Shown piece by piece: positions 1 to 60,141 of a stretch of 64,000 bases of DNA. The translations under genes and the position numbers were made by a program. The stretch's first letter is position 1. Every line of letters begins with the position of its first letter. The stretch covers positions 1 to 64,000 of the forward strand of contig CABJAP010000003.1 of assembly GCA_902363595.1 (NCBI GenBank), in the 5' to 3' direction. The stretch is from Clostridia bacterium (GTDB lineage Bacteria; Bacillota; Clostridia; Peptostreptococcales; Anaerovoracaceae). The notes below the pieces were generated by a model, which was not told the origin of the DNA, searched no databases, and saw only the letters and a program-made list of their open reading frames with translations.

Positions 1-248
1 TTAAATGGTTTCATGGGGTTGCGAGAGGACTTTTGCATAGCATGGTGGACTGATTTTTTAATCCGCTATGCGCGAAATGATTGGTGGGGGCTTGGTTTCG
101 ACTTTTTCAGTGGCCTCAAAACTTCAGATGCTTGTGATAAATCCCGTTGATTTTATCGACAAAGCTTAAGATCAGGGGATTTCTTCTGTTCCTCCTCCTT
201 TACATGCTCTAATATTAAAACATCAATTGCTTTTTTTCAACCAAAAAG

Positions 249-290
249 AAAAACCGGCAGCCGCCCTATAGGGTGTCCGCCGGTTTTTCT
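249..290 (-). terminator. Rho-independent terminator after the DUF1538 gene
   Basis: A hairpin with arms AAAACCGGC and GCCGGTTTT sits just past the stop codon of the DUF1538 gene. It is A/T-flanked on both sides, so it could work in both directions. Bases 1-248 to its left contain no gene I can support. They hold one AAAGGAGGAGG-like motif on the minus strand with no start codon at a useful distance. Confidence 0.8.
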
Positions 291-301
291 TTCGGTAAAA
301 T

Positions 302-1798: not shown

Positions 1799-1836
1799 AT
1801 CATATATATAGGAAAGAAGTAACGAATTGTTCGAAT

Positions 1837-1865
1837 ATTATAACATAGATTTGTGTATTTAGCAA
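1837..1865 (-). promoter_or_regulatory. Sigma-A-type promoter of the DUF1538 gene
   Basis: On the minus strand TTGCTA (1860-1865) is followed after exactly 17 bases by a perfect TATAAT (1837-1842), about 40 bases before the coding start. It lies just beyond the antiporter terminator, so the DUF1538 gene is likely its own transcription unit. Confidence 0.65.
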
Positions 1866-1872
1866 ATTAATT

Positions 1873-1914
1873 TAAAAATCCCAGCAAGATTATAATGTCT
1901 TGCTGGGATTTTTC
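1873..1914 (-). terminator. Rho-independent terminator after the antiporter gene
   Basis: The arms AAAAATCCCAGCAAGA and TCTTGCTGGGATTTTT form a long hairpin ending in a T-run. It starts ten bases past the stop codon of the antiporter gene and separates that gene from the DUF1538 gene. Confidence 0.88.
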
Positions 1915-1923
1915 TCACATTTG

Positions 1924-4233
1924 CTATTCTTCTTCATCCAAAAAGTCCGCTTTCAATAAACTATTGGCCATCTTCTGTGTACCGATTACCCATAGCAGAT
2001 CCCCTTCTTCGATGACCATATCAATATCCGGGTTGACAATGGGCAGCATGCCCCGTTCAATCCCCAGAATATATCCTTTATACTTGGGCCGGAACCCAGA
2101 ATTTTTAATGGATTTTTTAATTAATATGGAGTCTTTTTCCACTTGAATCGGACAGCAGATAATCTGCTTTTCCGGTTCGATTTCGTAGAATATCTGTCCG
2201 TATATATATTCCCGCAGCGTAACCATCGGCTCCTGAGGTTCTTGGATATGATCGGCCTTTTCCAACATGAGAATACAGGATTCTATTTCATTTTTGGTAC
2301 CGATGGCATGAATGATATCGCCTTCAATAACGCGGAATTTTCCGTTGGGCATGTTGAAGTGCTTTCCATCGCGGATAATTTTGATAATCGTTACATGGAA
2401 AAAACGACTCTGGCAGAATTCGAGGATTGTATTTTGTTTAATGGTTTGGGTGACCTTAAATTCAACCACATAAAAGGATTCATCCAGCCAATGATATTCT
2501 CCCTTGATTCCCCGCTCTTTTTTCTGCCTTACCAAGGTTGTCTCATAAAAATTCTCGACAAACCGCATTTCCATCTTTAACGTTTTACCTTTAATGTAAT
2601 CTGATTTGATAATAAAGACGATAACGGCAAAAGAAAGAACCGCCAGCAGAATATATGGCAGGCGCAAAAGCACCCTCAAGGTCATGACAATAAATCCACA
2701 AGAAATGATGATCCGTACACCCGTGAATGCCAGCAGCGGCATCCGATTGGCCTGATTCTTCAGCCACAGCTTCGTATATAGAACGCTTTTTTTTGAGCAC
2801 ATGATACTAATGAGCGGGATCATGAATATGCAAGTGACCACAGCTGTAAGAATATTTGCCGCCAAACCCTGGATATATTGCTGCACAAATCCTTGAAGAA
2901 AACGAGTTCCTCCAATGTAAACCACAAAGATACCAGCTGTACAGATGCTGGACCGTATAAAAAACTTAATAATATAGCGCTGCCAATCCCAGTCTTTGTC
3001 AGCAGTGCTTTGCTGTTCCGACGTATGGCGGTTGAGAAACTTGTAGAGCTTGGGAGACAAGTGATGTTTTGCGAAATCATAAACTTTTTCCGAATGTTTG
3101 ATAAAAATCGGTGTCGTGAAGGTGGTAATCACGGAAACGCAGACCACAATCGGATAGAGGAAGTCACTGGTTACGCCCAGATTCATGCCCAGCGTAGCCA
3201 CGATAAAAGAAAATTCTCCGATCTGGACCATGCTGAATCCCCCTCGAATAGCGGTATGAAGCGATTGACCGGAAAAGAGAATTCCCAGGGTGGCAAAGGT
3301 CATCTGTCCCAGAATGGTGACGACGGTAATGATTAAAATAGGGCCCAGATACTCAATCAAAAGCTGTGGTTCAATCATCATTCCCACGGACACGAAAAAG
3401 ACCGCACCAAAGAGATCTTTGATCGGTTTGACCAGCTTTTCGATCCTTTTTGCTTGAAGGGTTCCCGCCAGGATGGAGCCGGCCAGAAAGGCGCCCAGCG
3501 CTGAAGAAAAGCCGATCAAATTGGCGATCACCACCATGCCTAGACATAAAGCGATGGAGATGATTAACAGCAGCTCGTCGCTGATATGGTCGGATACTTT
3601 TTTAAGAAAGGTCGGGATCAAATAAATTCCCAGCACCAGCCAGATCATCAGGCACAGGATAAGCATTCCGATATCTTTGAACAGCCCCAGCCCGGAGGTG
3701 CTCTGCCCTACGGCCACCGTGGAAAGAATAATCATCATAAAAATGCCCCCGATATCCTCCAGAACCAAAGTTCCCAATACCAGTTGGGCAAATTTTTCCT
3801 TTTTTAGTTTGTATTCCTCATAAGCTTTTAAAATGATCATGGTTGAGGACATGGAGAGCATACCTCCAAGAAATACACTGTCCATTTTGGCCCAGCCTAA
3901 AAGCTGTCCGGCCGTATAGCCGATTAAAATCATTACCATCATTACGGTCATGGCCGTGACAAATGCGCTGCCCCCGACTGTGGCGATCTTTTTAAAACTG
4001 AATTCCAGCCCCAAACCGAACATTAGGAACACGATGCCGATATTGGCCCAGACATGTATGTCCTCCACATCCACCACCGTAGGTAAATATCGAAAGTTGG
4101 GGCTGATCAAAAATCCGGCGATAATATAAGCTAAAACCACCGGCTGTTTGAGTTTTTTAAAAATCAAAGTCATGATTCCGGCAACCACCAAAATCAGGGC
4201 CAGGTCGCTTATCAAATAATCCAGTTGCTCCAT
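1924..4233 (-). CDS. CPA2-family cation/proton antiporter with two RCK_C-like domains
   Basis: The product (769 residues) resembles KefB/NapA-type monovalent cation/proton antiporters. Residues about 10-385 form the Na_H_Exchanger membrane domain. Residues about 415-555 add a second membrane block of roughly four segments that classic KefB proteins lack. The C-terminus has two TrkA_C/RCK_C-like modules (about 600-670 and 690-765), each ending in a GDxIHxIGT or GDLLWVIGT type strand. No Rossmann TrkA_N domain is visible between membrane and tail, so regulation by NAD(H) in the Kef manner is unlikely; the RCK_C modules may bind a small ligand such as a cyclic dinucleotide, which is inference. 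It begins eight bases past the histidine kinase stop and is probably co-transcribed with phoPR-like genes. Confidence 0.85.
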   Translation of the reverse strand: MEQLDYLISDLALILVVAGIMTLIFKKLKQPVVLAYIIAGFLISPNFRYLPTVVDVEDIHVWANIGIVFLMFGLGLEFSFKKIATVGGSAFVTAMTVMMVMILIGYTAGQLLGWAKMDSVFLGGMLSMSSTMIILKAYEEYKLKKEKFAQLVLGTLVLEDIGGIFMMIILSTVAVGQSTSGLGLFKDIGMLILCLMIWLVLGIYLIPTFLKKVSDHISDELLLIISIALCLGMVVIANLIGFSSALGAFLAGSILAGTLQAKRIEKLVKPIKDLFGAVFFVSVGMMIEPQLLIEYLGPILIITVVTILGQMTFATLGILFSGQSLHTAIRGGFSMVQIGEFSFIVATLGMNLGVTSDFLYPIVVCVSVITTFTTPIFIKHSEKVYDFAKHHLSPKLYKFLNRHTSEQQSTADKDWDWQRYIIKFFIRSSICTAGIFVVYIGGTRFLQGFVQQYIQGLAANILTAVVTCIFMIPLISIMCSKKSVLYTKLWLKNQANRMPLLAFTGVRIIISCGFIVMTLRVLLRLPYILLAVLSFAVIVFIIKSDYIKGKTLKMEMRFVENFYETTLVRQKKERGIKGEYHWLDESFYVVEFKVTQTIKQNTILEFCQSRFFHVTIIKIIRDGKHFNMPNGKFRVIEGDIIHAIGTKNEIESCILMLEKADHIQEPQEPMVTLREYIYGQIFYEIEPEKQIICCPIQVEKDSILIKKSIKNSGFRPKYKGYILGIERGMLPIVNPDIDMVIEEGDLLWVIGTQKMANSLLKADFLDEEE

Positions 4234-11648: not shown

Positions 11649-11667
11649 AAAGGTAGAGGTGATGAAA

Positions 11668-12777
11668 ATGAAAGAAATCAATATTGGAAAAATGATTATA
11701 ACCAAACGTAAAGAAAAAGGGATCACGCAGGATGAACTGGCGGCCTACATGGGCGTCTCCAAAGCATCCGTCTCCAAATGGGAAACGGGACAGAGCTATC
11801 CGGATATCACATTCCTGCCCCAGCTGGCGGCCTATTTTAATATTTCCATAGATGATCTGATGGGCTATACGCCCCAAATGACCAAAGAGGAAATCAAAAA
11901 TCAATACCACCGACTGGCCGATCAGTTCTCTTCCCGCCCTTTCGACGAAACCTATTCGGCATGCAGCCAGATTGTCCGCAAGTATTACTGCTGTTTCCCT
12001 CTGCTGCTGCAAATGGCGGTGCTCTATATCAATCATTCCATGCTGGCGCCTCAGGGCAAACAAAAAGAGGTTCTGGAAGAGGCTCTGGCTTTGTGCAGCA
12101 GGGTCAAAGAAGAAAGCGGCGATGTCTTTTTATCCAAGGATGCGGCAATGGTGGAAGCGGCCGCTCATATGATGATGGGCCAGCCTCAGGAAGTCCTTCA
12201 TCTCTTCGGGGAAACGCTGCGCCCCATTCCCCAGGAAACCGAGTGCATGGCGCAGGCTTACCTGATGATGGGAAAAACAGACCAAGGGCGGGAAGCACTC
12301 CAGGCAGCCATCTATCAGCATTTGATCGCATTGGAAGGTAATATGGCCCAGCTCCTTACCCTGCCCGATCAGAGCCCTGAGCGGCTGGATGAAATTCTAA
12401 GGCGCCTCCTTGGCGTAGCCGAGCTCTTTGAACTGGAAAGGCTTCATCCCAATGTGATGGCCCAATCCGCCCTCACTGCGGCCCATACATTCTGCGGCTT
12501 GGAAAATCGGGAAAAAGCCCTTCAGATGCTGGAGCTTTATGTAAAAGTTTGTGAGCATTTCGCACCTTTTACGCTGCACGGGGATGCCTTTTTCGATTCC
12601 ATCGATCCCTGGCTTGCTGATTTTGATCTGGGTAACCAGGCTCCCCGCAGCGAAGAGGTAATAAAAAAGAGCTTGATCCAGAACATTGAACAAAACCCGG
12701 CGCTGTCCATCCTGACAGATACTCCGGAGTTTCAAACCATTGTCACAAAACTGAAAGCAATCTTAGGAGGTAACTGA
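11668..12777 (+). CDS. XRE-family transcriptional regulator with helical C-terminal domain
   Basis: The first ~65 residues are a classic HTH_3 domain (GKMIITKRKEKGITQDELA, then VSKASVSKWETGQSYPD). They are followed by a spacer and about 290 residues of helical, TPR-like repeats. Proteins of this architecture commonly sit in front of ABC exporters in Firmicutes and control them, so autoregulation of this operon is the simplest reading. GAGGTG lies six bases before the chosen ATG; another ATG two codons earlier is possible. A PLDc_N protein, an ABC ATPase and a permease follow almost without gaps. Confidence 0.85.
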   Translation: MKEINIGKMIITKRKEKGITQDELAAYMGVSKASVSKWETGQSYPDITFLPQLAAYFNISIDDLMGYTPQMTKEEIKNQYHRLADQFSSRPFDETYSACSQIVRKYYCCFPLLLQMAVLYINHSMLAPQGKQKEVLEEALALCSRVKEESGDVFLSKDAAMVEAAAHMMMGQPQEVLHLFGETLRPIPQETECMAQAYLMMGKTDQGREALQAAIYQHLIALEGNMAQLLTLPDQSPERLDEILRRLLGVAELFELERLHPNVMAQSALTAAHTFCGLENREKALQMLELYVKVCEHFAPFTLHGDAFFDSIDPWLADFDLGNQAPRSEEVIKKSLIQNIEQNPALSILTDTPEFQTIVTKLKAILGGN

Positions 12778-12778
12778 T

Positions 12779-12979
12779 ATGAACGATTATACAGAATACA
12801 TGCCCTTTCTCATTCCCCTGGCTATTTTAGAAATTATTTTGGCCGTGGTAGCCCTGGTTCATGTTCTCAGGCATCCCCATTATCGGTTCGGAAACCGCCC
12901 TCTCTGGATCCTGATCGTGGTGCTGGTGCAAATCATCGGGCCGGTCGTCTATTTTGCCTTTGGAAGAGGTGATGAATAA
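12779..12979 (+). CDS. Small two-helix membrane protein, PLDc_N domain
   Basis: A 66-residue protein with two membrane segments (about 8-29 and 40-60) and the YRFGNRPLWILIV...GPVVYFAFGR pattern of the PLDc_N domain. It has no phospholipase catalytic domain. AGGAGG lies within the end of the XRE gene, and its stop overlaps the start of the ABC ATPase gene. It is probably an accessory subunit of this ABC exporter; the role is inferred from the conserved neighbourhood only. Confidence 0.8.
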   Translation: MNDYTEYMPFLIPLAILEIILAVVALVHVLRHPHYRFGNRPLWILIVVLVQIIGPVVYFAFGRGDE

Positions 12980-13896
12980 TGGATACCCTGTGCATCGACG
13001 GGCTGACAAAGAAGTTCGGGGCGCAGACGGTCCTCGACCGAATTTCTCTTTCTGTGCCTGAGCATTCCATTTTCGGATTTTTAGGTCAGAACGGAGCCGG
13101 AAAAACGACTACCATGAAATTGATTCTAGGTTTATTAAAAGCCGATGAGGGGCAGATTACAATCCTGGGCGAGACGGCCTGCTACGGCCAGACGCCAACC
13201 AACCGGCTGGTGGGATACCTGCCCGATGTGCCGGAGTTTTACGGATACATGCGGCCAGCGGAGTATCTGAAGCTATGCGGAAAGATAGCCGGGCTTCCGA
13301 AAGAGGAAATTCGCCTTCGTACAGAAGAACTTTTGCATTTGGTAGGTTTGGAGGATACTAAGAAAAAAATCCACGGCTTCTCCAGGGGAATGAAACAGCG
13401 GCTGGGAGTTGCTCAGGCACTGCTTGGAAAGCCAAAACTGTTGATCTGTGATGAACCTACATCTGCTCTGGATCCAGTCGGCAGACGGGAACTATTGGAT
13501 ATTCTCAGTCAAGTCAGAGGGCAGACAACCGTCCTCTTTTCGACCCATATTCTATCCGATGCGGAACAAATATGCGACCGCATCGCTATCCTCCATCATG
13601 GACGGCTGGCACTCTGCGGAGAGCTAAATGAGCTCAAAGCAAAAAAGGCTCAAAATGCACTTTTCGTCAGCTTTTCATCGGCTTCCCAGGTCTCTGAACT
13701 GACCTCGTCCCCATATTTGCTGCCCTACTTGGAACAGATGGAAGTTCAGAGCACTTCTGTGACCATCCGCTGTACCAGGATTAAGGAGCTAAAGCAGGCT
13801 GTCTTATCCGCTCTTTATGGAAAGAGCTTATTTCCTGTCAAAATGGAGATCCAGGAACCGACTTTAGAAAGCATTTTTATGGAGGTGGTACAATGA
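12979..13896 (+). CDS. ABC transporter ATP-binding protein (ABC-2 exporter type)
   Basis: The 305-residue ATPase has a Walker A (GQNGAGKTTT), a signature motif of the degenerate exporter kind (GFSRGMKQRLG) and a Walker B (LLICDEPTSALDP). A switch histidine follows in STHILSD, and a C-terminal extension of about 90 residues follows as in DrrA/BcrA/NatA-type proteins. It forms a pair with the permease gene, which starts four bases before this gene ends. Substrate is unknown; drug, peptide or sodium export are typical of the group. Confidence 0.92.
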   Translation: MDTLCIDGLTKKFGAQTVLDRISLSVPEHSIFGFLGQNGAGKTTTMKLILGLLKADEGQITILGETACYGQTPTNRLVGYLPDVPEFYGYMRPAEYLKLCGKIAGLPKEEIRLRTEELLHLVGLEDTKKKIHGFSRGMKQRLGVAQALLGKPKLLICDEPTSALDPVGRRELLDILSQVRGQTTVLFSTHILSDAEQICDRIAILHHGRLALCGELNELKAKKAQNALFVSFSSASQVSELTSSPYLLPYLEQMEVQSTSVTIRCTRIKELKQAVLSALYGKSLFPVKMEIQEPTLESIFMEVVQ

Positions 13897-14654
13897 ATGG
13901 ATTGATTGCCTTTACTGGCAAAGAGCTTTGCGAATCCTTTCGGACTTACAAATTGATTATTCTGGGGATCGTCTTTCTTCTCCTGGGAATCATGAATCCC
14001 CTTTCCGCTAAATTAATGCCGGAGCTGATGGGTTCTTTCCTCCCTGAGGGTATGTCCATGTCCCTGGCCGAGCCTGCGGCTATCGACTCCTGGATGCAGT
14101 TTTTTAAAAACGTGCCGCAGGTTGGGCTGATCGTCATGGCAATCCTGTTCAGCACCATGCTTTCAGGTGAGCTGAACCGCGGAACTCTGGTAAACATGCT
14201 GACCAAAGGGCTCTCCAGAAGCAGTGTGATTCTGGCAAAGTTCATCTCCGCTGCCGTAACTTTTTCAGCGGCCTATCTGCTATGCTTCGGGGTTTCCTTT
14301 GGCTACACTGTCTATTATTGGAGCGATCCTGTCAGCCGCCTGCCGCTGTCCATTGCCGCCCTTTGGGCCTTTGGAATTTTGTTGATCGCCTCGCTCCTTT
14401 TGGGCGGTGTCTTGTTTCGGTCCGGCTATGGAGCCTTGCTCTTCACCGGCGGTTTTACTGTCTTGCTGTTTCTCCTCAATCTGATCTATGATCTAAAACG
14501 ATTTAATCCGATCCGGCTGGCATCGGACAACGTATCGCTGCTCAATGGTCAGATGACCGGATCGGATTTTACCGCTGCCTTTATCATCTGCGGGCTGCTG
14601 GCTGCAGGGTTTCTTTTGGCGGCAATCGCCATCTTTAACCGCAAGCAGATTTAG
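13893..14654 (+). CDS. ABC-2 type transporter permease
   Basis: A 253-residue permease with six predicted membrane segments and the ABC2_membrane features: a long external loop after the first segment (about 40-75), then FSTMLSGELNRGTLVNMLTKG as the coupling region. It overlaps the ATPase gene by four bases and is its partner. The operon ends here. The next 200 bases to the convergent SDR gene contain no gene and only a weak A/T-rich hairpin near 14,699-14,717. Confidence 0.88.
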   Translation: MNGLIAFTGKELCESFRTYKLIILGIVFLLLGIMNPLSAKLMPELMGSFLPEGMSMSLAEPAAIDSWMQFFKNVPQVGLIVMAILFSTMLSGELNRGTLVNMLTKGLSRSSVILAKFISAAVTFSAAYLLCFGVSFGYTVYYWSDPVSRLPLSIAALWAFGILLIASLLLGGVLFRSGYGALLFTGGFTVLLFLLNLIYDLKRFNPIRLASDNVSLLNGQMTGSDFTAAFIICGLLAAGFLLAAIAIFNRKQI

Positions 14655-14856
14655 ATGGAAAGATTGCACCTTCAGGCAGCCTATTGACTTAAATCGGGAA
14701 ACTTTTATTGAAAGTTTTCATCTTTTACGCAAAGTTGTGGGTTTACGGGACCTGATTTAGAAAAAAAGGAAGCCTGGACGCTGCAAAGCCGATCTGAGGG
14801 GCCGCAACCGTTGAAAATTGCGTAAATTTCACATGATTTTCTAAATTTTTTCTTTC

Positions 14857-15615
14857 TTAAAAGAACACCGCTCCGCCGTTGGGGCTTACAAACTGGCCGC
14901 AGAAGAAGTTTCCTTCATCCGATACCAGGAGCACCGCGGCGGCGCTGATTTCTTCCACTTTTCCCAGCCTTTGCAGCGGAATATCCTTTTCTTTTTCCAC
15001 CCATTCCGGTTCCATGTCCGCCAGAATCATATCCGTTTCAATGGGGCCTGGGGCTATGATGTTCACTAGAATCTCGGGAGCCAGCTCCAGCGCCAGACAC
15101 ATGGTAAAGGAATTGATCGCGCCCTTGGCGGCGGCGTAATGACCGTACCCGGCCCTGCCTTTCTTGGAAAGCTCGGAAGAAATGTTGATCATCTTGCCCA
15201 CCGGCTTTTCCGGACCTGTTTCAATCAAGGGGATAAAATGCTTGCAGCTGAGGAACACGCCCCGCAGATCGGTGTTGATTACCCGGTCCCATTCGCTGGT
15301 TTCCATCTCCGTAACCGGCACTTCCAAACCGATGGTCCCTGCGTTGTTGACTAAAATATTGATCCCACCAAATGCCTCTTTCACCGATTGAGCCATTCTC
15401 TTTACATCCTCTTCCTTGCCTGCATCCGCCTGAACAGCCAGCGCCTTTACACCGTATGCCTCGATCTCCTTTACGGTTTTTTGCGCCGCCTTTTCATTGC
15501 TGCGGAAGGAAAAGGCAATGTCCGCACCTTCCGCGGCCAAGGCCAGAGCGATCCCTCTGCCGATTCCCCTGCTGCCGCCGGTGATAACGGCGACTCTGTT
15601 TTCCAATTTTCTCAT
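14857..15615 (-). CDS. SDR-family oxidoreductase (FabG-like)
   Basis: A 252-residue classical short-chain dehydrogenase. The NAD(P)-binding TGGSRGIG motif is at about residues 13-20, NNAG near 90, the catalytic serine in INISSE, and Tyr and Lys in YAAAK. It is the last gene of a six-gene operon with an arginase-fold hydrolase, a creatininase and a permease. The substrate is not evident. Within this operon it could act on a hydroxy or keto intermediate produced after the hydrolases, but FabG-type motifs alone do not decide this. Confidence 0.85.
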   Translation of the reverse strand: MRKLENRVAVITGGSRGIGRGIALALAAEGADIAFSFRSNEKAAQKTVKEIEAYGVKALAVQADAGKEEDVKRMAQSVKEAFGGINILVNNAGTIGLEVPVTEMETSEWDRVINTDLRGVFLSCKHFIPLIETGPEKPVGKMINISSELSKKGRAGYGHYAAAKGAINSFTMCLALELAPEILVNIIAPGPIETDMILADMEPEWVEKEKDIPLQRLGKVEEISAAAVLLVSDEGNFFCGQFVSPNGGAVFF

Positions 15616-15631
15616 TTTACTTACCTCGATT

Positions 15632-16411
15632 CTATAGATAATACGGCGTGCAGCGATATTCTCCGCCGCTGACCGTCACATGCCGCCCGCTGAAAGCCCG
15701 GCCCCCAGCCTCAGTTGCCATAAAAGCGGCCATGCTCGCGATTTCATCGGGACGGGCGATTCGCTGCATAGCGATATCCTTTGCATACATCGCTCTGACT
15801 TCATCCAGAGAAATTCCCAGATCGTCAGCATCCACATTGAGCTGAGGCGTATCGATCACCCCTGGTACAATAGTACAGACTCGGATGTTATCCTTTTCAT
15901 AAGCCCTGGCCAGATACTGGCCCATGGTCAGAATGCCCGATTTGGAAGAGCCGTAGCCTGTGGCGTTGTTCCAGCCCACGGTTCCGAAAAAGGAGCTGAT
16001 GAGAACGATCGTGCCGCCGCCCCTTTGCCGCATCTTAGGGATTGCTTTGCGGATACAGGCCATATGTCCGGTCAAATTGATCTTAATCTGCTGCCACCAA
16101 CTGCTTTCTTCGCTCTCTAAAAATGGCGACATACTCATACCGGCTGCGTTGCAGACCAATACATCCAGCTTTCCATAATGCCGGCATGCTTCCTCGACCA
16201 CCTGCTCCGCAGCCGCCGGCTCCTGTAAATCGCCCATGGCGGTTTTGGCTCCCGTCTGTTCTGCAACCCGCCTTACCTTATCATTGAGCCTTCGTCCATT
16301 GATGATTACCTTTGCCTTTTCCCGGGCAAACTCCCGCGCCATCGCTTCACCGATGCCCTGTGTTCCGCCGGTGATAAAAACGACGTTTCCTTCCAATTCC
16401 TTATACCTCAT
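15632..16411 (-). CDS. SDR-family oxidoreductase
   Basis: A 259-residue short-chain dehydrogenase with TGGTQGIG at the N-terminus, CNAAG in place of NNAG, serine in LISSFFG, and YGSSK as the catalytic Tyr/Lys motif. It ends in a distinctive SGGEYRCTPYYL tail. It overlaps the start of the downstream-transcribed neighbour region by a few bases and is co-transcribed with the other operon genes. It is only distantly similar to the adjacent SDR, so the pair is probably two different enzymes and not a recent duplication. Confidence 0.85.
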   Translation of the reverse strand: MRYKELEGNVVFITGGTQGIGEAMAREFAREKAKVIINGRRLNDKVRRVAEQTGAKTAMGDLQEPAAAEQVVEEACRHYGKLDVLVCNAAGMSMSPFLESEESSWWQQIKINLTGHMACIRKAIPKMRQRGGGTIVLISSFFGTVGWNNATGYGSSKSGILTMGQYLARAYEKDNIRVCTIVPGVIDTPQLNVDADDLGISLDEVRAMYAKDIAMQRIARPDEIASMAAFMATEAGGRAFSGRHVTVSGGEYRCTPYYL

Positions 16412-17042
16412 CGCTTGTCACCTCCTGTTTCTTTGCGCCTCCGATGGAAATTACTTGCCCTGCCGTATATGTATCCTGGTCCGCAAGGTAAAATACCGTT
16501 TCCGTAAGGGCTGCCAAATCGATGGGAACATTGGGTGCCAAGGCGTTGACCAGCACATTGTCTTCCGCCACTTCCGCGCCAAAGCATTTGGCAAATCCGT
16601 GGAGCATGCCGGCGGCCGAAGCCTCCATGATACACTCCCGTTCTTCCCAGCGATAGTCGGGCGCCAGTAAAATGATTTTTCCTGATTTCCGTTTGACCAT
16701 ATAGGGCGCCTCTGCTCTGCATAGATTGGCTGCTCCGCCGAAGATGGTCTTCATAACCCGCTGCCACCCTTTCATATCGGTCTCTTCAAATCCGGTTTCC
16801 AGGGTAACTCCCGCGCTGTGAAATACCGCAGCCAAAGGCTGCTCCCCTTCGATGAGCCGGATCACTTCCAATACCGCTTTTGAGTCCCGCATATCGCATG
16901 GATAGCTGCGGTCCGCACTTGGGCAATCCCCAGTAAGATCAAGGCCGATGACGTTCCAGCCCCGCTGCCGGAATAACCGGGCCGCCGCTCCTCCGACTTT
17001 ACCGCCGCATCCTGAAATCAGGATTGATTTATTGGTTTTCAT
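16401..17042 (-). CDS. SDR-fold protein lacking the catalytic Tyr-Lys motif
   Basis: The 213-residue protein keeps the SDR nucleotide fold (SGCGGKVGGAAARLF near the N-terminus, HSAG in place of NNAG, and the AGQVISIGGA ending). The usual YxxxK is absent: the region reads ECIMEASAAGMLHG, without Tyr or Lys in place. It is shorter than normal SDRs. It is therefore likely catalytically dead or a partner subunit of one of the two adjacent SDRs. The start was set at the ATG preceded by AAAGGAGG; an ORF extending 13 codons upstream has no better site. Its start overlaps the end of the permease gene. Confidence 0.75.
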   Translation of the reverse strand: MKTNKSILISGCGGKVGGAAARLFRQRGWNVIGLDLTGDCPSADRSYPCDMRDSKAVLEVIRLIEGEQPLAAVFHSAGVTLETGFEETDMKGWQRVMKTIFGGAANLCRAEAPYMVKRKSGKIILLAPDYRWEERECIMEASAAGMLHGFAKCFGAEVAEDNVLVNALAPNVPIDLAALTETVFYLADQDTYTAGQVISIGGAKKQEVTSDEV

Positions 17043-18468
17043 CTTTTTCCTCCTTTCGGTCTCTCGGTCTGATATAGGCAAAATAGTAGATCAGCGCCAG
17101 TGCCAGCAAACCTCCCACAATGGCCAGATCCTTTGCCGTCTGCGAAGTGATCGCCACCACCAGAAACAGAATGACGATGATGGATGGTATGGGAAACAGC
17201 GGCATCTTGAATGGACGAGTGGATTCTTTGTCCCTCAGCCTGCTGTTGATGGATCCGATTGCGATCAAAAGATAAACCGTCGCTGCTGCCATCCCGCCGA
17301 ATGTAATCAAGGTTACGATATCGGAAGCAAAGACCAGAATGCAGTCAACTGCTGCGATGAGGATGGTAGCTGCCCACGGCACCTTTCCTTTTCCGGAAAC
17401 CTTCATCAGCGCGCTGTTCATTTTTCCCGGCCAGATGCGGTCCCGTGCTCCCGTGTAGAGCACCCTTGCCATATAGTTGATGATGACCACCAGGCAGCCA
17501 AAAGACGAAATGATGATTCCTGCATTGATGATGGTTGCGCCGATGGCTCCCATATAGGATTCCGCCGTGTAAAGAAGGGGGGATTCATTGCTCAGGAAAG
17601 CAAATAGATCGGGTGCCGCGACCATTCCCATAATCAGTACGACGACAATGATCACTGCTGTTGTAGCCGCTGAAATAAAGACCGCCTTTCCCACATTCCT
17701 GCAGGAACCCTTGGTTTCCTCTGAAAAGCCCAGGGATGCCGGATAACCGTCGATGGCTGCGCAGAGAATTCCGATTCCCATCAAAACCGCTGCGAAGGTC
17801 ACAGGAACCGTTCCCGTACCGCTCTCATTGAGCATTTCCGCGTTAAACAGCACGTCTCCCAGAGATCGCTGCGGGTTGGCGAAGCAAACATACAGGAAAA
17901 CAAAGATGACAGCCATTTGCAGAGCCAGAAAGATTTTCGCCACTCGATTGCTGGTCACTATGCTGTTAAGGCCGATGAGTAAAGCGATGATCAGCGTTAT
18001 GGCGGAAATGGCGCTGCAGGCCAACGCTCCTTGGGGAAGCTGGGGAAAGAGAATCTGCAGGTACTGGGCCACGCCCATGGCGATGGACGGCGGATAAATA
18101 AACGCCTGAATCATAAAGGTAAACACTGCGATAAAGACCAGGGGTTTGGGGAGCACATAGCTGACAATCGAATATAGGCCGCCTGATACCGGATACATGG
18201 ACCCCAGCTCACCCAATATGAGTCCGATTAAAATGACATTGATTCCCTGCAGGATCGCAGCCGGACCAGTGGCAATGCCCACTGTGGCAAAGGCGGCCAA
18301 TGCGTAAACGAAAGCGGCCATGACCGGCGATACATTGGAAAGAGCCATCACCACATTTCCGAACACCGACAGCTTCCGGTCCAGCTCCTGGGGATACCCC
18401 AGCTGTTCCAGCCTCCGCTGTGCTCCATCTTCTTTGGAATCCACAAAGGGAAGGTTACTTTTTTTCAT
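17029..18468 (-). CDS. APC-family amino acid/amine permease
   Basis: A 479-residue membrane protein with about twelve segments and the APC-superfamily start (FGNVVMALSNVSPVMAAF, then GELGSMYPVSGGLYSIV). These proteins import amino acids, amines or guanidino compounds with a coupling ion. It lies between the creatininase gene and the SDR genes, so it is the best candidate to take up the substrate of this pathway. The spacing to the creatininase gene is 12 bases, which supports one transcript. Confidence 0.88.
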   Translation of the reverse strand: MKKSNLPFVDSKEDGAQRRLEQLGYPQELDRKLSVFGNVVMALSNVSPVMAAFVYALAAFATVGIATGPAAILQGINVILIGLILGELGSMYPVSGGLYSIVSYVLPKPLVFIAVFTFMIQAFIYPPSIAMGVAQYLQILFPQLPQGALACSAISAITLIIALLIGLNSIVTSNRVAKIFLALQMAVIFVFLYVCFANPQRSLGDVLFNAEMLNESGTGTVPVTFAAVLMGIGILCAAIDGYPASLGFSEETKGSCRNVGKAVFISAATTAVIIVVVLIMGMVAAPDLFAFLSNESPLLYTAESYMGAIGATIINAGIIISSFGCLVVIINYMARVLYTGARDRIWPGKMNSALMKVSGKGKVPWAATILIAAVDCILVFASDIVTLITFGGMAAATVYLLIAIGSINSRLRDKESTRPFKMPLFPIPSIIVILFLVVAITSQTAKDLAIVGGLLALALIYYFAYIRPRDRKEEKDENQ

Positions 18469-18480
18469 GAGAGTGCCTCC

Positions 18481-19227
18481 TTACGTACGTTCTCTGAGAA
18501 TGTTTGCGTAGTTCTCTGCAATGTCGCGGGCCATCAGCTTTCCTTTGTCGGCGGAAGCGGTTCTGGCCGTTGCCAAAAGTCCGGTGGCCGGTACTTGACA
18601 CCTTTCTGCCGGGTAAATGCTGTACCCCAGCTCTTTTGCGGGAGCATCCTCTGTAAACCGGTCCATGTGAACCAGGTCGGGCCGAAAATACAGGGTCAAA
18701 GAAGTTTCTGCGATGGCTGCGTGCTCCAGCGCCCATCCTGGAAATTCAACTTCATCAAAGACCTGATCCATCACTGGCTGGGAAATCTGATCCCACCAGC
18801 TGCTTTCGATAAAGGTTACATCTTTGTATGTTCTGGACAACAGATCTACGGCTTCTAGGATAAAGGCTTCGTTTTCAAAGTGTCCGTTCAAAATGAATAT
18901 TTTTTTGATCCCGTCGCGGATCAGCTCCTCACAAACATCAAAAACAAGGGATGTCAGAGTTTCTCCGTTGAGATCCAAAGTTCCCGGAAACAGCGGGCCG
19001 CCCCCGGATAAAGGCGCTGATTTATATCCGTAGCAAATGGGAGGCGCTACGATTCCATCCACTTTCTCCGCCACCATCTCGGCCAAACCGGTGGAAATAA
19101 TGGCGTCTACCGACAGCGGCAGCATGGGTCCGTGCTGCTCTGTGGAACCCACCGGCAAGATTACGATAGCCTCCTCTTTTTTCTTTTGGAAATCCTGCCA
19201 GGTCATTTCCTGCATAAATACGCTCAT
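18481..19227 (-). CDS. Creatininase (creatinine amidohydrolase) family enzyme
   Basis: The 248-residue enzyme keeps the metal and catalytic residues of Pseudomonas creatininase in register: Glu30 and His32 (GSTEQHG), Asp41, and His116 and Glu118 (NGHFEN). The later WD, GWALEH and AETSLTLYFRPDLVHMDR segments correspond to the Trp and His residues that close over creatinine. The tail (TGLLATARTASADKG) also matches. The family contains other enzymes (MftE, formamide hydrolases, inosose hydrolases), but those lack the NGHxEN form, so a true creatininase is the best call. The reaction is creatinine plus water to creatine. It sits between the ureohydrolase and the permease genes. Confidence 0.82.
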   Translation of the reverse strand: MSVFMQEMTWQDFQKKKEEAIVILPVGSTEQHGPMLPLSVDAIISTGLAEMVAEKVDGIVAPPICYGYKSAPLSGGGPLFPGTLDLNGETLTSLVFDVCEELIRDGIKKIFILNGHFENEAFILEAVDLLSRTYKDVTFIESSWWDQISQPVMDQVFDEVEFPGWALEHAAIAETSLTLYFRPDLVHMDRFTEDAPAKELGYSIYPAERCQVPATGLLATARTASADKGKLMARDIAENYANILRERT

Positions 19228-19244
19228 CTTCTTACATCTCCTTT

Positions 19245-20192
19245 CTACTTGCCCGACTTTTTCAGAGCAATGAGGCTGATAAATTCAAAGACCAGATTGG
19301 CGGCCAGGAAGGCTGTGATCTGGGTGGGGTCGTAGGCCGGCAGAACTTCCACCAGGTCATAGCCGACAAAATTCAGTCCTTTCAGTTTGCGGACCATATC
19401 CAGGGATTCTGCGCTGGTGAACCCTCCCACCTCAATGGTACCCGTTCCCGGCGCATAAGCTGGATCCACAAAATCAATATCAAAGGTCAGGAAGGCCTTA
19501 TGATCGCCCACTCTTTCGATAATTCGGCGGATTACTTCCGCAAGCCCCAGCTCACGCATCTCAAAGCTGGTAATCACCTCAAAGCCCAGGTCCGCGGAAC
19601 CGTTGAGATCGTCTTCCGAATAGAAGGTCCCTCGCATACCGATCTGAATGGAATGGGTTACATCGATCAGCCCTTCCTCCAAAGCCCGTTTGAATACGGT
19701 TCCGTGGTTGTATTTCTTTCCGAAATATGAATCGATGGTGTCAAAGTGGGAATCGAAATGAACCAAAGCCACCGGTCCATGGACGCTTGCGATGGCCCGC
19801 AGTTCACCCAGGGTAATAGAGTGGTCCCCTCCCAGGCAGATGGGTATGACGCCGGCTTTGACAATCGGCATCAGGCCCCGGACCATTTGCTGGTACGTGT
19901 CTTCAATGAACCCTGGAATCACCGAAACATCTCCGTAATCTACGCCGGAAAGTTCATCTACCACATTGATCCGCTGAGGCACGTTATAAGGCTTGATCAG
20001 TGAGGAGATATCTCGGATGGCGGCGGGGCCGAATCTGGCTCCCGGCCGATAGGTGGTTCCTGTGTCGAAGGGTACGCCGATGACTGCATAGTCGATGTCC
20101 TCCGTTGTCTTAACATTGGGAAGACGCATAAAGGTTTTGATTTCCGCAAACCGCGGTGTCTCCAAAGAATTTAATGGAACATACTTTTTCAT
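19245..20192 (-). CDS. Arginase/agmatinase-fold ureohydrolase
   Basis: A 315-residue ureohydrolase with the complete binuclear metal site: His124 (GGDHS), Asp147, His149 and Asp151 (HFDSHFD), Asp238 and Asp240 (FDIDFVDP). Family members split a guanidino group into an amine and urea; substrates include agmatine, guanidinobutyrate, guanidinopropionate, arginine and guanidine. It is the first gene behind the sigma-54 promoter and is followed directly by creatininase. Given that context, creatine (to sarcosine and urea) is a plausible substrate, which would differ from the known M24-type creatinase. Agmatine or another guanidino acid remains possible. A strong AAAGGAGG precedes the ATG. Confidence 0.85.
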   Translation of the reverse strand: MKKYVPLNSLETPRFAEIKTFMRLPNVKTTEDIDYAVIGVPFDTGTTYRPGARFGPAAIRDISSLIKPYNVPQRINVVDELSGVDYGDVSVIPGFIEDTYQQMVRGLMPIVKAGVIPICLGGDHSITLGELRAIASVHGPVALVHFDSHFDTIDSYFGKKYNHGTVFKRALEEGLIDVTHSIQIGMRGTFYSEDDLNGSADLGFEVITSFEMRELGLAEVIRRIIERVGDHKAFLTFDIDFVDPAYAPGTGTIEVGGFTSAESLDMVRKLKGLNFVGYDLVEVLPAYDPTQITAFLAANLVFEFISLIALKKSGK

Positions 20193-20235
20193 AATAGCCT
20201 CCTTTAAGTCAGTTGTTGTGTTGCCATATTAAAAC

Positions 20236-20251
20236 AGCAAGTATTATGCCA
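20236..20251 (-). promoter_or_regulatory. Sigma-54 (-24/-12) promoter of the ureohydrolase-creatininase operon
   Basis: The minus strand reads TGGCATAATACTTGCT. This matches the sigma-54 consensus TGGCAyr-N4-TTGCw with correct GG-to-GC spacing, 44 bases before the ATG of the first gene. The neighbouring gene encodes a sigma-54 activator with the GAFTGA loop, which makes a chance match unlikely. Confidence 0.85.
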
Positions 20252-20274
20252 ATTGATTGAATAGATTGAAAATT

Positions 20275-20359
20275 TTGCATTCAGTTGCAATCAGCTGTTT
20301 TCCCGCCGCCTTTTCTTTTTTGTTTATAAAAAAGGAACACAAAAACGTGCAGTTTTGCA
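20275..20359. promoter_or_regulatory. TGCA-type inverted repeats, candidate activator sites
   Basis: A perfect inverted repeat TTGCA-N6-TGCAA lies at 20275-20290, about 24 bases upstream of the sigma-54 promoter. A second TGCA-N4-TGCA (20348-20359) forms the loop of a 15-base-pair perfect hairpin with arms 20333-20347 and 20361-20375. They lie at the usual enhancer distance between the activator gene and its likely target operon. Binding is inferred. Confidence 0.55.
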
Positions 20360-20424
20360 TCGTTTTTGTGTTCCTGTGTTGTTTTTCCATTAATTTCAAT
20401 GGATTTATCCGTTTTCGGAAAAAT

Positions 20425-20455
20425 GCAAAAATGCACGCAAATCGTGCATTTTTGC
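20425..20455 (-). terminator. Hairpin after the sigma-54 activator gene
   Basis: The perfect 13-base arms GCAAAAATGCACG and CGTGCATTTTTGC with a five-base loop start two bases past the stop codon of the activator gene. It may end that transcript. It also contains TGCA-N4-TGCA, so it could instead be part of the activator-binding array. Confidence 0.55.
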
Positions 20456-20456
20456 C

Positions 20457-21851
20457 CTATTTTAGTAAATTTTCATATTTGTCCAGTTTTCTTCGGATGG
20501 TGGTCGCATCAATTCCCAACCTGTCAGCGGCCTTGGGAATCGACCCTTCCCTTTCAATGGCCAGCTTTAACAGATGGTGGTCGTATTTTGCCAGAGCGGT
20601 TTTGTAATCCTCCGTTCCCATATCGTCGAAGGGAAATGCTCCTGTCTTTCCCCGCAAAAGATGTACGGGAAGGGACTTCACGTCGATTACATCTTCCTGG
20701 GTACTGACCAAAATTCGTTCAATCAAGTTTTCCAGCTCGCGGATATTTCCCGGCCATTCATATTCCAGCAGCAAATCTTTCACCTCTTCGGTAAGCTGCT
20801 TGCAAAATCCGTAATGTTTGTTGAGCTTTTCCGTAAGCCGTAATGTCAGCGGCAATATATCCTCTCGCCTTTCGCGAAGGGCCGGAATGCGGATCGGCAC
20901 CACGTTGAGGCGATAATACAGATCTTCCCGGAATTCTTTATCCCGTACTTTCTGCGTCAGTTCCACGTTGGTTGCGGCAATAATCCGCAGCTCCAGTTTC
21001 TTTACCAGCTTTCCTCCCACGGGAACAATTTCCCGGTGCTGAATGGCCCGCATGAGTTTGGGCTGCATGGACAGCGGCATTTCGCCAATCTCATCCAAAA
21101 ACACCGTACCTCCGTTGGCCAGTTCCAGCAGCCCGGCTTTTCCTGTTTTTTCCGCTCCTGTGAAGGCTCCCTTTTCGTAGCCGAACAGCTCTGATTCAAA
21201 CAGGGATTCTGGGATGCTGCTGCAATCGATTTTGATAAAAGGACCCTGGGCGCAATTGCTGTTATTGTGAATGAACTCGGCCAAAAGGCCCTTGCCTACG
21301 CCCGATTCCCCTGTAATGAGCACCGTCGAATCGACTTTAGCCACATTTAAGGCTAGGCGGATAATCTTCTGCATGGCCGGGCTTTTGGCGATGAAATCCG
21401 GCTGCTTGCCATGCTGCTGTTTCAGTAACTCCAACTCGATCTGATACTGTTTTGCCAGCTCTTCCTTTACTGATAATTCTCGTTTTAGTTCATTGAGATC
21501 GGTAATATCCCGTGAATTGACCACGATTTTATCGATCGATCCGTCTTCCTTGAACGTGGGAGTACCTGTGGACAAAAGCTGGTTTCCGTTTTTAGCAGTC
21601 TGTATGATGGTGGTCGGTTCCTTTGTTTCCAAAACTTTTAATGTCACGGATTCCGAGTAAACTCCGTTTGCTACAAGCTCCTTAATGGTTTTGGTCATCG
21701 CCTCTTCCCGCGATATGCCCTCAATTCTGGTACATGCATTATTTATATATAAGGTGTTTCCCTGGTTATCTAAAATATGAATCCCATCGTAAGACGATTC
21801 AAAGGCGGTTTTTAAAATTTCCACCTCTTTGTCCATATCCAGTCCTTTCAC
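20457..21851 (-). CDS. PAS-domain sigma-54-dependent transcriptional activator
   Basis: Residues about 5-115 form a PAS sensor domain. Residues about 155-385 form a sigma-54 AAA+ domain with Walker A GESGVGKG, the sigma-54 contact loop GAFTGA, and Walker [12 protein letters not shown]. Residues 420-464 form a Fis-type helix-turn-helix ([16 protein letters not shown]). A coiled linker at about 120-150 joins them. The PAS domain probably senses a small ligand or metabolite. Its likely target is the sigma-54 promoter 200 bases past its own stop codon. A GTG start with GGGAGG six bases upstream and an ATG five codons later with AAAGGA are both plausible. Confidence 0.9.
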
Positions 21852-21936: not shown

Positions 21937-22170
21937 TCAATCCGGCAGCATTTTTAAATAGGTATCCAAACGTTCATTTACATATCCTGCAAACAGCTTT
22001 TCCATTGCAGACAGATCACCTTTCACATGATACGCATCAAAGGCATTGTAGTAAGCAATTCGGTCGGTAAACTTGATGTCAATAGGCGGATACCCAGCCT
22101 TCATCAGTTCAAGGTTAACCAGCAGCCGTCCAGTTCTTCCATTCCCATCAGGCAATGCCACATTGAGACC
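21937..22170 (-). pseudogene. 3' remnant of a Fic-family gene, cut by element insertion
   Basis: The frame retains the DGNGRTGRLLVN part of the Fic motif and about 65 residues downstream (MKAGYPPIDIK, DRIAYYNAFDAYH), typical of the C-terminal end of Fic AMP-transferases. The conserved His and Phe that precede DGNGR are gone: the sequence upstream is NVALP and lies inside the recombinase gene. The gene therefore lost its 5' part when the element integrated into the Fic active-site codons. The 5' part is expected at the other end of the element, outside this window. Confidence 0.85.
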
Positions 22171-23761
22171 CCGCAAGAAAACGATAGTTAATTTCTACTT
22201 TTTGCTTACGATCTTTGCCGGTTCCCTCTGCCTGATACACATAAATGCTATCAATCAGTTCTACCAGCATAGAACGGTTCAGCTCTGTTACAGTTTCATA
22301 CTTGCGTATGGTTTCCAAAAATTGATTGGTGCTCTGGGTTTTCTTTTCCTCGGCTATGATCCTTGCTTTCAAATCATCCCTCTTTTGGGTGAGCTCTTTC
22401 TGCTCGTTCTCATAAGCTGATGACATTTTCTCGAAACGCTCGTCTGTAATCTTCCCCAAAGCATTCTGCTCAAAGAGTTTCATAATTACACTGTCAATTT
22501 CCCCGATCCGTTTTTCAGCTATTTCCAAGTCCTGCCTGAATTGCTTGATTTTCTGGCCACCGCCCTTTTCGCTCAATTCGTGCATTTCTTCAATGAACTG
22601 ATCGCCCAGGGCTTCCATGCTCTTAATGTGTTTCTGAATATCGCCCATAACAATCTGCTGTAATGCGTCATACGAAATTGCGTGTGTCGTACAAAGATTA
22701 CTGTTTCTCGCATAGGTTCTGCAGCGGAATCGGGGTTCCCTTCCATTTGGATTTGAGAACGCCATGTTACGGCCGCAATCCGGGCATTTCACAAGTCCTA
22801 CAAACATATTAGGGTGTCCTGTCTTGTTGGGTCGTTTCTTCACGCTGATAAATTTCTGTACCAGTTCAAAGGTTTCCTCGTCCACAATCGCCTCATGGGT
22901 ATTTCGGACTATGATCCATTCCTCTTTAGGAACCGATACCAGTTTTTTGTTCTTAAATGATTTTGTCTGTGTTTTATGGGACACCATGTGACCTAGATAC
23001 ACTTGATTCTCCAAAATCATTTTTACATTTTTCCCTACCCAGTCTGTCGGAAACTTGAATCCGGTGCTTGTGTCCAATGTACCGTTCTTCATTGCCCGGT
23101 ATGCCCGCGGGATTAAGATTCCATCCTCGCATAGAGCCCTTGCAATCTGATGTACGCTGTTGCCCTGCTTCGATAATTCAAAAATACGCTTGACGGTAGG
23201 CGCTGTTTCCGGGTCAACCAGTAACTGACGTTTGTTCTTTGGATCGACCATATAACCATATGGGGCAAAGGAACCGCAAAACCCGCCATTCAAAGCCATT
23301 GTTTTCTTGACGCTGCGGATTTTCTTTGATGTGTCACGGGCATAATACTCATTCATAATGGATTTGAACGGCATCATTTCGTTTTCATCGAATCTTGTGT
23401 CAACGTCGTCATTCAGGGCAATAAACAAAATGTCATTGTTGGGGAATATTTCTTCCACATAGTACATGAACATGGCATTATTTCGCCCGAAACGCGACAT
23501 ATCCTTAACCATGATACCGGTTGGCCTTGTATCTTCCATAGCATCCTTAATCATACGGTTCAGGTCTGGCCGATCAAAGGTCGTACCGGAAATTCCGTCG
23601 TCCACATATTCGCCAATCACTTCAAAGCCTTTTTCCTTTGCGTGATACCTTAACATCTGCAACTGATTGGTAATGCTGTTGCTTTCCTTATCAGCATCCC
23701 CGTCATCTTTGGATAAACGTGCATATAATCTAACTGGAAGTTTTGTCTGCTGTTTTAACAT
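22148..23761 (-). CDS. Large serine recombinase (TnpX/TndX-type integrase)
   Basis: The 537-residue protein has an N-terminal resolvase domain with the catalytic serine at position 17 (VRLYARLSKDD) and the conserved RPDLNRMIKDA and MVKDMSRFGRN segments. A Recombinase domain (about 170-290), a zinc ribbon (CPDCGRNM...CRTYARNSNLC) and a C-terminal coiled coil follow. Enzymes of this type excise and integrate conjugative transposons such as Tn4451 and Tn5397 through a circular form. The last codons lie at the element boundary: the TGA is created over the Fic sequence, so the stop codon may depend on the target site. Confidence 0.92.
   Translation of the reverse strand: MLKQQTKLPVRLYARLSKDDGDADKESNSITNQLQMLRYHAKEKGFEVIGEYVDDGISGTTFDRPDLNRMIKDAMEDTRPTGIMVKDMSRFGRNNAMFMYYVEEIFPNNDILFIALNDDVDTRFDENEMMPFKSIMNEYYARDTSKKIRSVKKTMALNGGFCGSFAPYGYMVDPKNKRQLLVDPETAPTVKRIFELSKQGNSVHQIARALCEDGILIPRAYRAMKNGTLDTSTGFKFPTDWVGKNVKMILENQVYLGHMVSHKTQTKSFKNKKLVSVPKEEWIIVRNTHEAIVDEETFELVQKFISVKKRPNKTGHPNMFVGLVKCPDCGRNMAFSNPNGREPRFRCRTYARNSNLCTTHAISYDALQQIVMGDIQKHIKSMEALGDQFIEEMHELSEKGGGQKIKQFRQDLEIAEKRIGEIDSVIMKLFEQNALGKITDERFEKMSSAYENEQKELTQKRDDLKARIIAEEKKTQSTNQFLETIRKYETVTELNRSMLVELIDSIYVYQAEGTGKDRKQKVEINYRFLAGSQCGIA
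22150..22172. mobile_element. Left attachment junction of the integrated element
   Basis: Within these bases the recombinase frame (ending GSQCGIA) and the fic frame (resuming at PDGNGRTGR) overlap out of phase. The crossover must lie here. The core dinucleotide cannot be fixed without the right junction or an empty site; TndX-type enzymes use GA, and a GA is present in the CCTGATGGG segment. Confidence 0.65.
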
Positions 23762-56357: not shown

Positions 56358-56729
56358 TTAATTTTTTCTGCTCCGGCGCTTGCGTTCCCGCTCGGATTTC
56401 CGTCTGGCAAAGGCGCGGCAGGAATCCGAACAATACGCCTGGCTGGTGGTAGGAAGATATGCCTTGCCGCAGACCGGACAGATTTTTTGTTTCAGGGAAG
56501 TGTCCTCGCCGGTAATGGCAGATTCCAGCGCCGGGTCCACCGGCAGTACCGCCTCCCGAAAGTACCGGCAGAAAGAGCCGGTCCACCATTTTTGCAGCAT
56601 ATAACAGGGGCAGTCTAAGGGGAGGCAGAGCCTATCCTGATTGTCATGGTTGGCGCACAGGTCTGTTACCAGCCTTCGGACCCTTGCCCGTTCCTGCCTG
56701 GTTAATTCCCGTGAGGGCTGCCCGGTCAT
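56358..56729 (-). CDS. Cysteine-rich VLP-domain protein
   Basis: A 123-residue protein with a cysteine-rich core: LCANHDNQDRLCLPLDCPCYML, CRYFREAVLP, then CPVCGKAY and YCSDSCRAFARR, ending in a strongly basic tail. This is the cysteine-rich VLP family of Clostridia conjugative elements; the paired CxxC motifs suggest zinc binding and the tail suggests nucleic-acid contact. It overlaps the topB gene by four bases. Confidence 0.82.
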   Translation of the reverse strand: MTGQPSRELTRQERARVRRLVTDLCANHDNQDRLCLPLDCPCYMLQKWWTGSFCRYFREAVLPVDPALESAITGEDTSLKQKICPVCGKAYLPTTSQAYCSDSCRAFARRKSERERKRRSRKN

Positions 56730-58834: not shown

Positions 58835-58887
58835 TCCTGTAACCTCCATTTCTTTGAAATAGAAAAGGCAGCATAGCAGCTACCCCT

Positions 58888-60104: not shown

Positions 60105-60141
60105 ACACCACCAGTACGTGCCGTTCGGCATACGGCGGTTC
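60105..60141 (-). ncRNA. Group II intron domain V (catalytic hairpin)
   Basis: Strands GAACCGCCGTATGCCG and CGGCACGTACTGGTGGT pair around a GAAC-type tetraloop with the expected bulge. The CGC triad marks subgroup IIC. Confidence 0.85.

Follow-up and report, generated by a model that had tools for sequence, protein, structure and literature searches.

Which compound is handled by an operon that combines a creatininase homologue, an arginase-fold ureohydrolase, an APC-type permease and three short-chain dehydrogenase/reductase (SDR) proteins? The question is raised by a stretch of DNA from a Clostridia bacterium of the Anaerovoracaceae (assembly GCA_902363595.1, contig CABJAP010000003.1, positions 1 to 64,000; this whole stretch of 64,000 nucleotides is referred to below as the window). 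The original prediction for this locus was that creatine made by the creatininase may be split by the arginase-fold enzyme into sarcosine and urea, giving an anaerobic creatinine route that would feed sarcosine reductase, with a modified or different guanidino substrate as the fallback. Our analysis gives an about even chance that the operon, under sigma-54 control, serves the catabolism of a single creatinine-related guanidino compound bearing a hydroxyl or keto group. The fallback is thus the best fit, given that the SDRs are part of the cassette.

A conserved seven-gene cassette and its promoter

The operon lies on the minus strand (14857-20192) and reads, in order of transcription, ureohydrolase (19245..20192, 315 aa), creatininase-family amidohydrolase (18481..19227, 248 aa), APC-type permease (17029..18468, 479 aa; PF13520, 109.8 bits), SDR_A (16401..17042, 213 aa from an ATG, although an upstream TTG at 17081 is also possible), SDR_B (15632..16411, 259 aa) and SDR_C (14857..15615, 252 aa). 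A single transcript is likely because of the short distances between genes, with gaps of 17, 12 and 16 bases and overlaps at the other two joints of 14 bases and, between SDR_A and SDR_B, 11 bases. Domain matches confirmed that the permease and all three SDR proteins are encoded here, as first proposed. The permease showed only weak similarity to APC transporters of solved structure.

A scan of the genome collection recovered 253 relatives of the ureohydrolase, of which the best 80 loci were kept. In seven of these (L001-L007), genes for the activator, ureohydrolase, creatininase, permease and three SDRs follow one another in the same order as in the window. The flanking genes are mostly unrelated among loci (exceptions are an ABC-transporter flank in the window and L001, the flanks of L006 and L007, and one upstream gene in L002 and L004), and the recurrence of the same seven genes amid such flanks argues that the cassette is real. 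Hence, the operon is more than a chance arrangement and is conserved in several clostridial bacteria, the nearest named relatives being Anaerovorax odorimutans and Sinanaerobacter chloroacetimidivorans. The pairing of ureohydrolase and creatininase, for which a search of other genomes had been suggested, is intact in seven other loci and appears again in a further locus discussed below (L062). Judging by titles and the beginnings of abstracts, we found no earlier description of the cassette in the open-access literature, and no open-access paper linking creatininase with ureohydrolase.

Partial copies, cut by contig ends or rearranged, were also found (L009, L124 and L157). L009 comprises activator, ureohydrolase and creatininase, and its contig ends after the start of the permease. 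In L124, which has no ureohydrolase on the stretch, the creatininase and the beginning of an ABC transporter gene are apparently fused (2665-3537), perhaps through misassembly or rearrangement. L157 begins inside a permease gene, followed by three SDR genes, and comes from the same genome (G678) as L021, where the contig ends after activator and ureohydrolase (with Thr at position 150); the two may represent the opposite ends of one more, divergent cassette.

Upstream of the operon, the predicted PAS-AAA-Fis activator is indeed encoded next door (20457..21851, minus strand; PF00158 at 224 bits, PAS_4, and the Fis-type helix-turn-helix domain HTH_8). Its best NCBIfam model was PrdR, at 399 bits and below the cut-off of 795, and a relative lies directly upstream of the ureohydrolase gene in L001-L007 and L009. 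The interval between activator gene and operon holds a terminator-like hairpin identified by pattern match (20425..20455, minus strand), with a 13-pair stem followed by a T run; the pattern matched 10 times in the region, compared with a mean of 8.8 in shuffled sequence, and this copy has the longest stem. It is followed by a -24/-12 promoter (TGGCAT-N5-TTGC; 20237..20251, minus strand) placed 44 bases 5' of the ureohydrolase start codon. Given a hairpin after the activator gene and then a -24/-12 element, the operon most likely starts independently of the activator gene, at a sigma-54 promoter of its own.

This promoter, described earlier as near-consensus, is the single exact match to TGGCAY-N5-TTGC in the window with both strands counted (20251-20237), and an exact element was present in all nine cassette loci examined (window, L001-L007 and L009). 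It also occurred in 7/9 ureohydrolase loci where no cassette was visible, among them L021, itself perhaps a cut cassette. The promoter is thus a feature of the ureohydrolase group at large. No Rfam element, the guanidine riboswitch included, reached its gathering score between 12700 and 24000.

Two hydrolases and three SDR proteins

The creatininase homologue aligned over its full length with the solved Pseudomonas putida enzyme (97 of 245 aligned positions identical), and matched both PF02633 (201.6 bits) and the TIGR04448 equivalog of NCBIfam (317.4; cut-off 235), making its sequence-based family placement firm. Identities as 3-dehydro-scyllo-inosose hydrolase (IolN) or MftE were rejected, as scores were 90 and 110 against cut-offs of 245 and 172, respectively. 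A search found 952 related proteins, 120 of which were listed; residues were counted in all 120 plus 17 others, and a tree was built from 26 of the 120 plus the same 17. Cassette creatininases formed one clade (support 98/97), in which P0085, counted as non-cassette in the residue comparison, was also placed by the tree. Of the 92 sequences in the clade, only 8 were seen in their genomic setting.

With the P. putida enzyme, the window protein shares the family score, all metal residues, Ser78 and His178. More broadly, the residues that we take to be functional in P. putida creatininase (E34, H36, D45, S78, H120, E122, H178 and E183, in its numbering) were kept in 92/92 clade sequences, in agreement with the prediction that they are in register. 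Differences were found at Q75, which is Ala in all 92 clade members, and at positions 174 and 175. Trp174, presumably a substrate flap residue, was invariant in the 45 other creatininase sequences compared, P. putida included (some of these are nearly identical to each other), whereas the clade has Trp in 50 and Ile in 42 of its 92 members, and Ala, Glu or Asp at position 175 in 46, 42 and 4, respectively. The window has W-A, L002-L004 have I-E, and L006 and L007 have W-D as in P. putida. Whereas family membership is firm, the assignment of creatinine as the substrate is not. A second recurrent setting of clostridial creatininases was observed in L125, L126, L130, L135 and L164, where PucR-like regulators and genes for cytosine/creatinine deaminase-like proteins lie nearby (the regulators were named by eye, and among these loci the deaminase was confirmed for L125 only).

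The ureohydrolase belongs to PF00491 (297.5 bits) and also scored above the cut-offs of PRK02190 (308 against 302) and TIGR01230 (212.8 against 174.3). A human enzyme labelled agmatinase is reported to hydrolyse guanidino acids, and not agmatine, creatine or guanidinoacetate (PMC9772407); the NCBIfam agmatinase label therefore says little about the window enzyme. The complete binuclear metal site that had been proposed (H124, D147, H149, D151, D238 and D240) was upheld, as five of these ligands were kept in 84/84 aligned rows and D147 in 83/84. The closest solved relatives are guanidinobutyrase (GbuA; 131 of 304 positions identical), guanidinopropionase (GpuA; 131 of 303) and proclavaminate amidinohydrolase (Pah), which share the fold family and metal site at 42-43% identity.

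In a tree of the 80 kept loci, the window and these three reference enzymes, the window grouped with L001-L007 and L008 in one clade (100/98). Phe150, between ligands H149 and D151, was found in 9/84 rows, all in this clade (window and L001-L008), with Leu in L009 and Thr in L021. Moreover, T189 and F190 each occurred in 7/8 cassette rows compared with 1/71 others, where the usual pair is S-L. Unlike GbuA, GpuA and Pah, the cassette enzyme thus carries F150 between its ligands and mostly T189-F190, and has a creatininase and SDRs in its operon. These residues of the main clade suggest that the pocket of the cassette ureohydrolase probably differs from that of ordinary relatives. Y156 aligned with a Tyr of GpuA, which we presume to have a role there, and not with the Met of GbuA; Tyr was present in 48/84 rows.

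Such relationships raise the possibility of separate rather than sequential hydrolyses, in which the ureohydrolase uses a linear guanidino acid (3-guanidinopropionate or 4-guanidinobutyrate, for example) and the creatininase and SDRs use a different, co-supplied compound. Relatives in L012, L013, L018 and L057 lie behind a similar activator and the same promoter, with a transporter-like neighbour (by eye) and without creatininase or SDR genes, which fits this arrangement, as do the identity of the closest solved relatives and the match of Y156 to the GpuA Tyr. Creatininase-family proteins are, in addition, known for other reactions, and the MftE and IolN models matched the homologue, below cut-off. 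Nonetheless, a constant seven-gene order amid mostly unrelated flanks, together with residues characteristic of most cassette ureohydrolases, argues for a joint task, and we regard separate substrates as unlikely.

Two other arginase-family loci were observed. In L038 (Clostridium aminobutyricum), a related ureohydrolase is situated between a BCCT-type transporter-like gene (by eye) and a sigma-54 activator. C. aminobutyricum ferments 4-aminobutyrate, and the context hints at use of 4-guanidinobutyrate. Contig C145 of G008, the genome that carries L062, has an unusual array of six consecutive arginase-family matches on one strand (11662-17590), two of them in open frames of 655 aa.

The three SDR proteins differ in their active sites, as assessed from a joint alignment of nine rows. 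In SDR_B, the N-S-Y-K tetrad is complete and the glycine-rich motif present in 9/9 rows. SDR_C, a FabG/glucose-dehydrogenase-like protein, has S-Y-K and the glycine motif in 9/9, with Asp at the position of the tetrad Asn in all nine. SDR_A has lost the tetrad Asn, Tyr and Lys in 9/9 rows, its glycine motif is altered, and it is the most divergent of the three (35-49% identity to the window copy). Its predicted structure is nevertheless an SDR fold (mean pLDDT 83.5), with neighbours that include the human heterotetrameric ketoacyl reductase (4cql/4cqm). The earlier count of three SDRs thus stands as regards fold, but only SDR_B and SDR_C look active from their sequences. Loss of the tetrad with retention of the fold indicates that SDR_A may be a non-catalytic partner, and the adjoining of an inactive SDR gene to an active one suggests an SDR_A/SDR_B heteromer. 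BbsCD is a heteromeric SDR with an inactive subunit. Like BbsCD and, by fold, the human ketoacyl reductase, the cassette would have two SDR chains encoded by adjacent or paired genes, of which one is possibly non-catalytic, although the cassette pair is a putative complex and falls in a different subfamily.

Among 391 genomes from the class, with up to six candidates scored per genome, SDR_B was found at E<=1e-50 in one, itself a cassette host (G001), so the SDR looks dedicated to the cassette. An SDR and a ureohydrolase acting on one scaffold would also be expected of a biosynthetic or modifying cassette that loosely resembles clavulanate formation, and the sequence relatives include Pah (1gq6) as well as the dehydrogenase of clavulanic acid/clavaldehyde (2jah). 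The SDRs moreover look FabG-like, a class that is usually NADPH-dependent. By domain assignment, however, no operon protein is a synthetase, ligase or exporter, and an APC permease with a PAS-domain sigma-54 activator fits uptake and breakdown, making a biosynthetic role very improbable.

Creatinine as a candidate substrate

The known route from creatinine to sarcosine uses a creatininase and an M24-type creatinase, and this chemistry needs no SDR. The cassette shares the family of the first enzyme, whereas its second hydrolase has an arginase fold (PF00491 only, with no M24 domain), and, compared with the P. putida system, the operon lacks an M24 creatinase and has an APC permease and additional SDRs. 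Should it nonetheless serve creatinine catabolism, the creatininase would form creatine, the arginase-fold enzyme would be a new creatinase yielding sarcosine and urea, and the SDRs would act in a side reaction or on a co-substrate. The TIGR04448 score above cut-off, the intact creatininase site and the P. putida-like W174-D175 of L006 and L007 are consistent with such a route. The active SDRs have no place in it, however, and the replacement of Trp174 by Ile in nearly half of the cassette clade speaks against it.

If sarcosine were formed and reduced, a sarcosine-type Grd subunit (PF09338) might be expected in cassette hosts. Six cassette genomes were searched, including that of Sinanaerobacter (G004, 4.8 Mb) and excluding that of L002. 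PF09338 proteins were found in four, and none in G003 or G004. The comparison, which covered 11 of 12 matches (L155 was omitted), included two proteins of Tissierella creatinophila, one of which (L150) we took to be the sarcosine type. Proteins of G005 and G006 were 71-72% identical to the other T. creatinophila protein and 51-53% to L150, and those of G001 and G002 were 43-48% identical to both. Hence, in 0/6 cassette genomes did any PF09338 protein exceed 53% identity to the presumed sarcosine type, although reversed labels for the two T. creatinophila proteins would place a sarcosine type in 2/6. The proposed feed into sarcosine reductase was not borne out by these results, and of the anticipated anaerobic creatinine route it is the pairing of the enzymes in one conserved sigma-54 operon that holds, with the route as a whole weakly supported.

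Tissierella creatinophila is informative here, as it ferments creatinine via creatine and sarcosine, and no creatine amidinohydrolase was found in its genome (PMC5364220), a finding that favours the creatinine route. Like the cassette hosts, it is an anaerobe with creatininases of this family, encoded at two loci (L141 and L142/L158) and 47 and 45% identical to the window enzyme (TIGR04448 for the L142 copy, 295 against 235), but their neighbours differ. Both have a nearby cytosine-type permease and an AGAT-like gene that runs off the end of the contig; the L142 copy matched human AGAT at E 8e-54, and a copy with an identical start lies at the end of L141. One locus has a cytosine-deaminase-like gene and the other, L142, an arginine deiminase (TIGR01078, 544 against 489). 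The features of L142 are at 2-820 (minus), 1339-2559 (plus) and 3040-3816 (plus). Such gene content suggests that T. creatinophila may convert creatine to sarcosine by amidino transfer, possibly yielding ATP. No cassette was present at the two creatininase loci or at the ureohydrolase locus of this organism, where a genome-wide search for SDRs was not made. Its ureohydrolase stands apart from the creatininase loci and groups with enzymes of T. praeacuta and Tissierella sp. P1; we therefore rejected this lone gene as proof of an arginase-fold creatinase, and its grouping, like the gene content of the loci, counts against the creatinine route.

Pairings of the two hydrolases outside the cassette bear on the same question. 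L062 has a PucR-like regulator (by eye), a creatininase and a ureohydrolase in a row, the last from another branch, and this adjacency fits hydrolases acting in sequence. L072/L138 also pair a creatininase with a ureohydrolase relative, the two genes of L072 lying within about 3 kb. A ureohydrolase relative (E<=1e-20) was, however, found in 0/16 of the stretches fetched around non-cassette creatininases (L125-L136, L141, L142, L163 and L164; the contexts of L131-L134 were not all inspected by eye, but were covered by the comparison for ureohydrolase, SDR_B and permease). The pairing has thus arisen more than once and is rare outside the cassette. The L062 arrangement lends some support to the creatinine route, as do PucR-like genes near creatininases in several clostridial loci with deaminase-like genes (L125 and L141 tested).

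As for the chemistry of creatine cleavage, a metformin hydrolase, another ureohydrolase, is reported to liberate a secondary amine (PMC11271267), whereas human GDAH and a guanidinase, both ureohydrolases, are reported to be inactive on creatine (PMC9772407, PMC11410670). An ordinary M24 creatinase encoded elsewhere is also possible, as Creatinase_N matches were found in 5/6 cassette genomes, with the M24 proteins lying outside the operon. Taken together, we consider creatinine catabolism with an arginase-fold creatinase doubtful, if somewhat less so than separate substrates for the two hydrolases. Urease was matched over its full length in only 1/6 cassette genomes; four of the other five gave weak matches above cut-off that spanned no more than 52 of 121 positions, and the fifth a weak match below cut-off. 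Scarcity of full-length urease suggests that the carbon skeleton, and not urea, is probably the prize.

Proposed pathway and significance

Under the reading that we prefer, a catabolic cassette for one creatinine-related guanidino compound with a hydroxyl or keto group, the activator would sense the compound via its PAS domain and open the -24/-12 promoter, and the APC permease would import it. The creatininase homologue would then hydrolyse a cyclic, creatinine-like amide to the free guanidino acid, which the ureohydrolase would split into urea and an amine. Before or after these hydrolyses, SDR_C and an SDR_A/SDR_B pair, with SDR_A as the non-catalytic subunit, would oxidise or reduce an alcohol or ketone of the skeleton. 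We infer that one substrate is shared by all of the enzymes, that the steps run in such an order, that SDR_A and SDR_B form a complex, and that the substrate is of this class. It also seems possible, at somewhat less than an even chance, that creatinine or a hydroxy or oxo analogue is degraded by an undescribed anaerobic pathway, with ring opening by a creatininase-type enzyme and cleavage by an arginase-fold ureohydrolase as sequential steps.

Several observations weigh against the preferred reading. The specificity of the SDRs cannot be read from sequence, and activity is less sure for SDR_C than for SDR_B because Asp replaces the tetrad Asn. Creatinine itself is possible for L006 and L007, given their W174-D175 pair. 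Moreover, the ureohydrolases of 8/9 cassette loci fall in one branch, and that of L009 lies outside it, beside L013, L018 and L021. No creatininase was found in the G678 assembly, which carries L021 and L157. Finally, L008 encodes a ureohydrolase with the signature F150 and has no creatininase or SDR alongside; its genome, the assembly of which is possibly incomplete, lacks SDR_B and any close creatininase, with only a distant one at 29% identity. Absences in other genomes are soft in general, as several assemblies are perhaps incomplete. Some further candidates came to mind without evidence and are not claimed here, namely arginine-derived hydroimidazolones, 5-hydroxycreatinine, 4-guanidino-3-hydroxybutyrate and argininic acid.

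Beyond the cassette, the window contains a large serine recombinase (22148-23761), a MobA/VirD2-type relaxase (50546-51946), a topoisomerase (56726-58849) and a group II intron reverse transcriptase (60140-61501). These genes, spread over 22148-61501, suggest an integrated mobile element that begins a short distance upstream of the gene for the activator. In L001, the genes that precede the activator showed no recombinase relative.

The literature does not seem to settle which enzyme opens creatine in anaerobes, given that a creatine amidinohydrolase was not found in T. creatinophila (PMC5364220), and the conserved clostridial cassette offers a defined, cloneable set of enzymes that can be tried on creatinine, creatine and related guanidino compounds. 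If the sequential pathway is correct, the ureohydrolase would apparently be the first of its fold to act on creatine or a creatine-like guanidino acid, with a pseudo-SDR/SDR pair for the redox step. Several creatinine-related guanidino compounds are uremic solutes, and, if the substrate is a modified creatinine, the cassette would point to an unrecognised microbial sink for such compounds.

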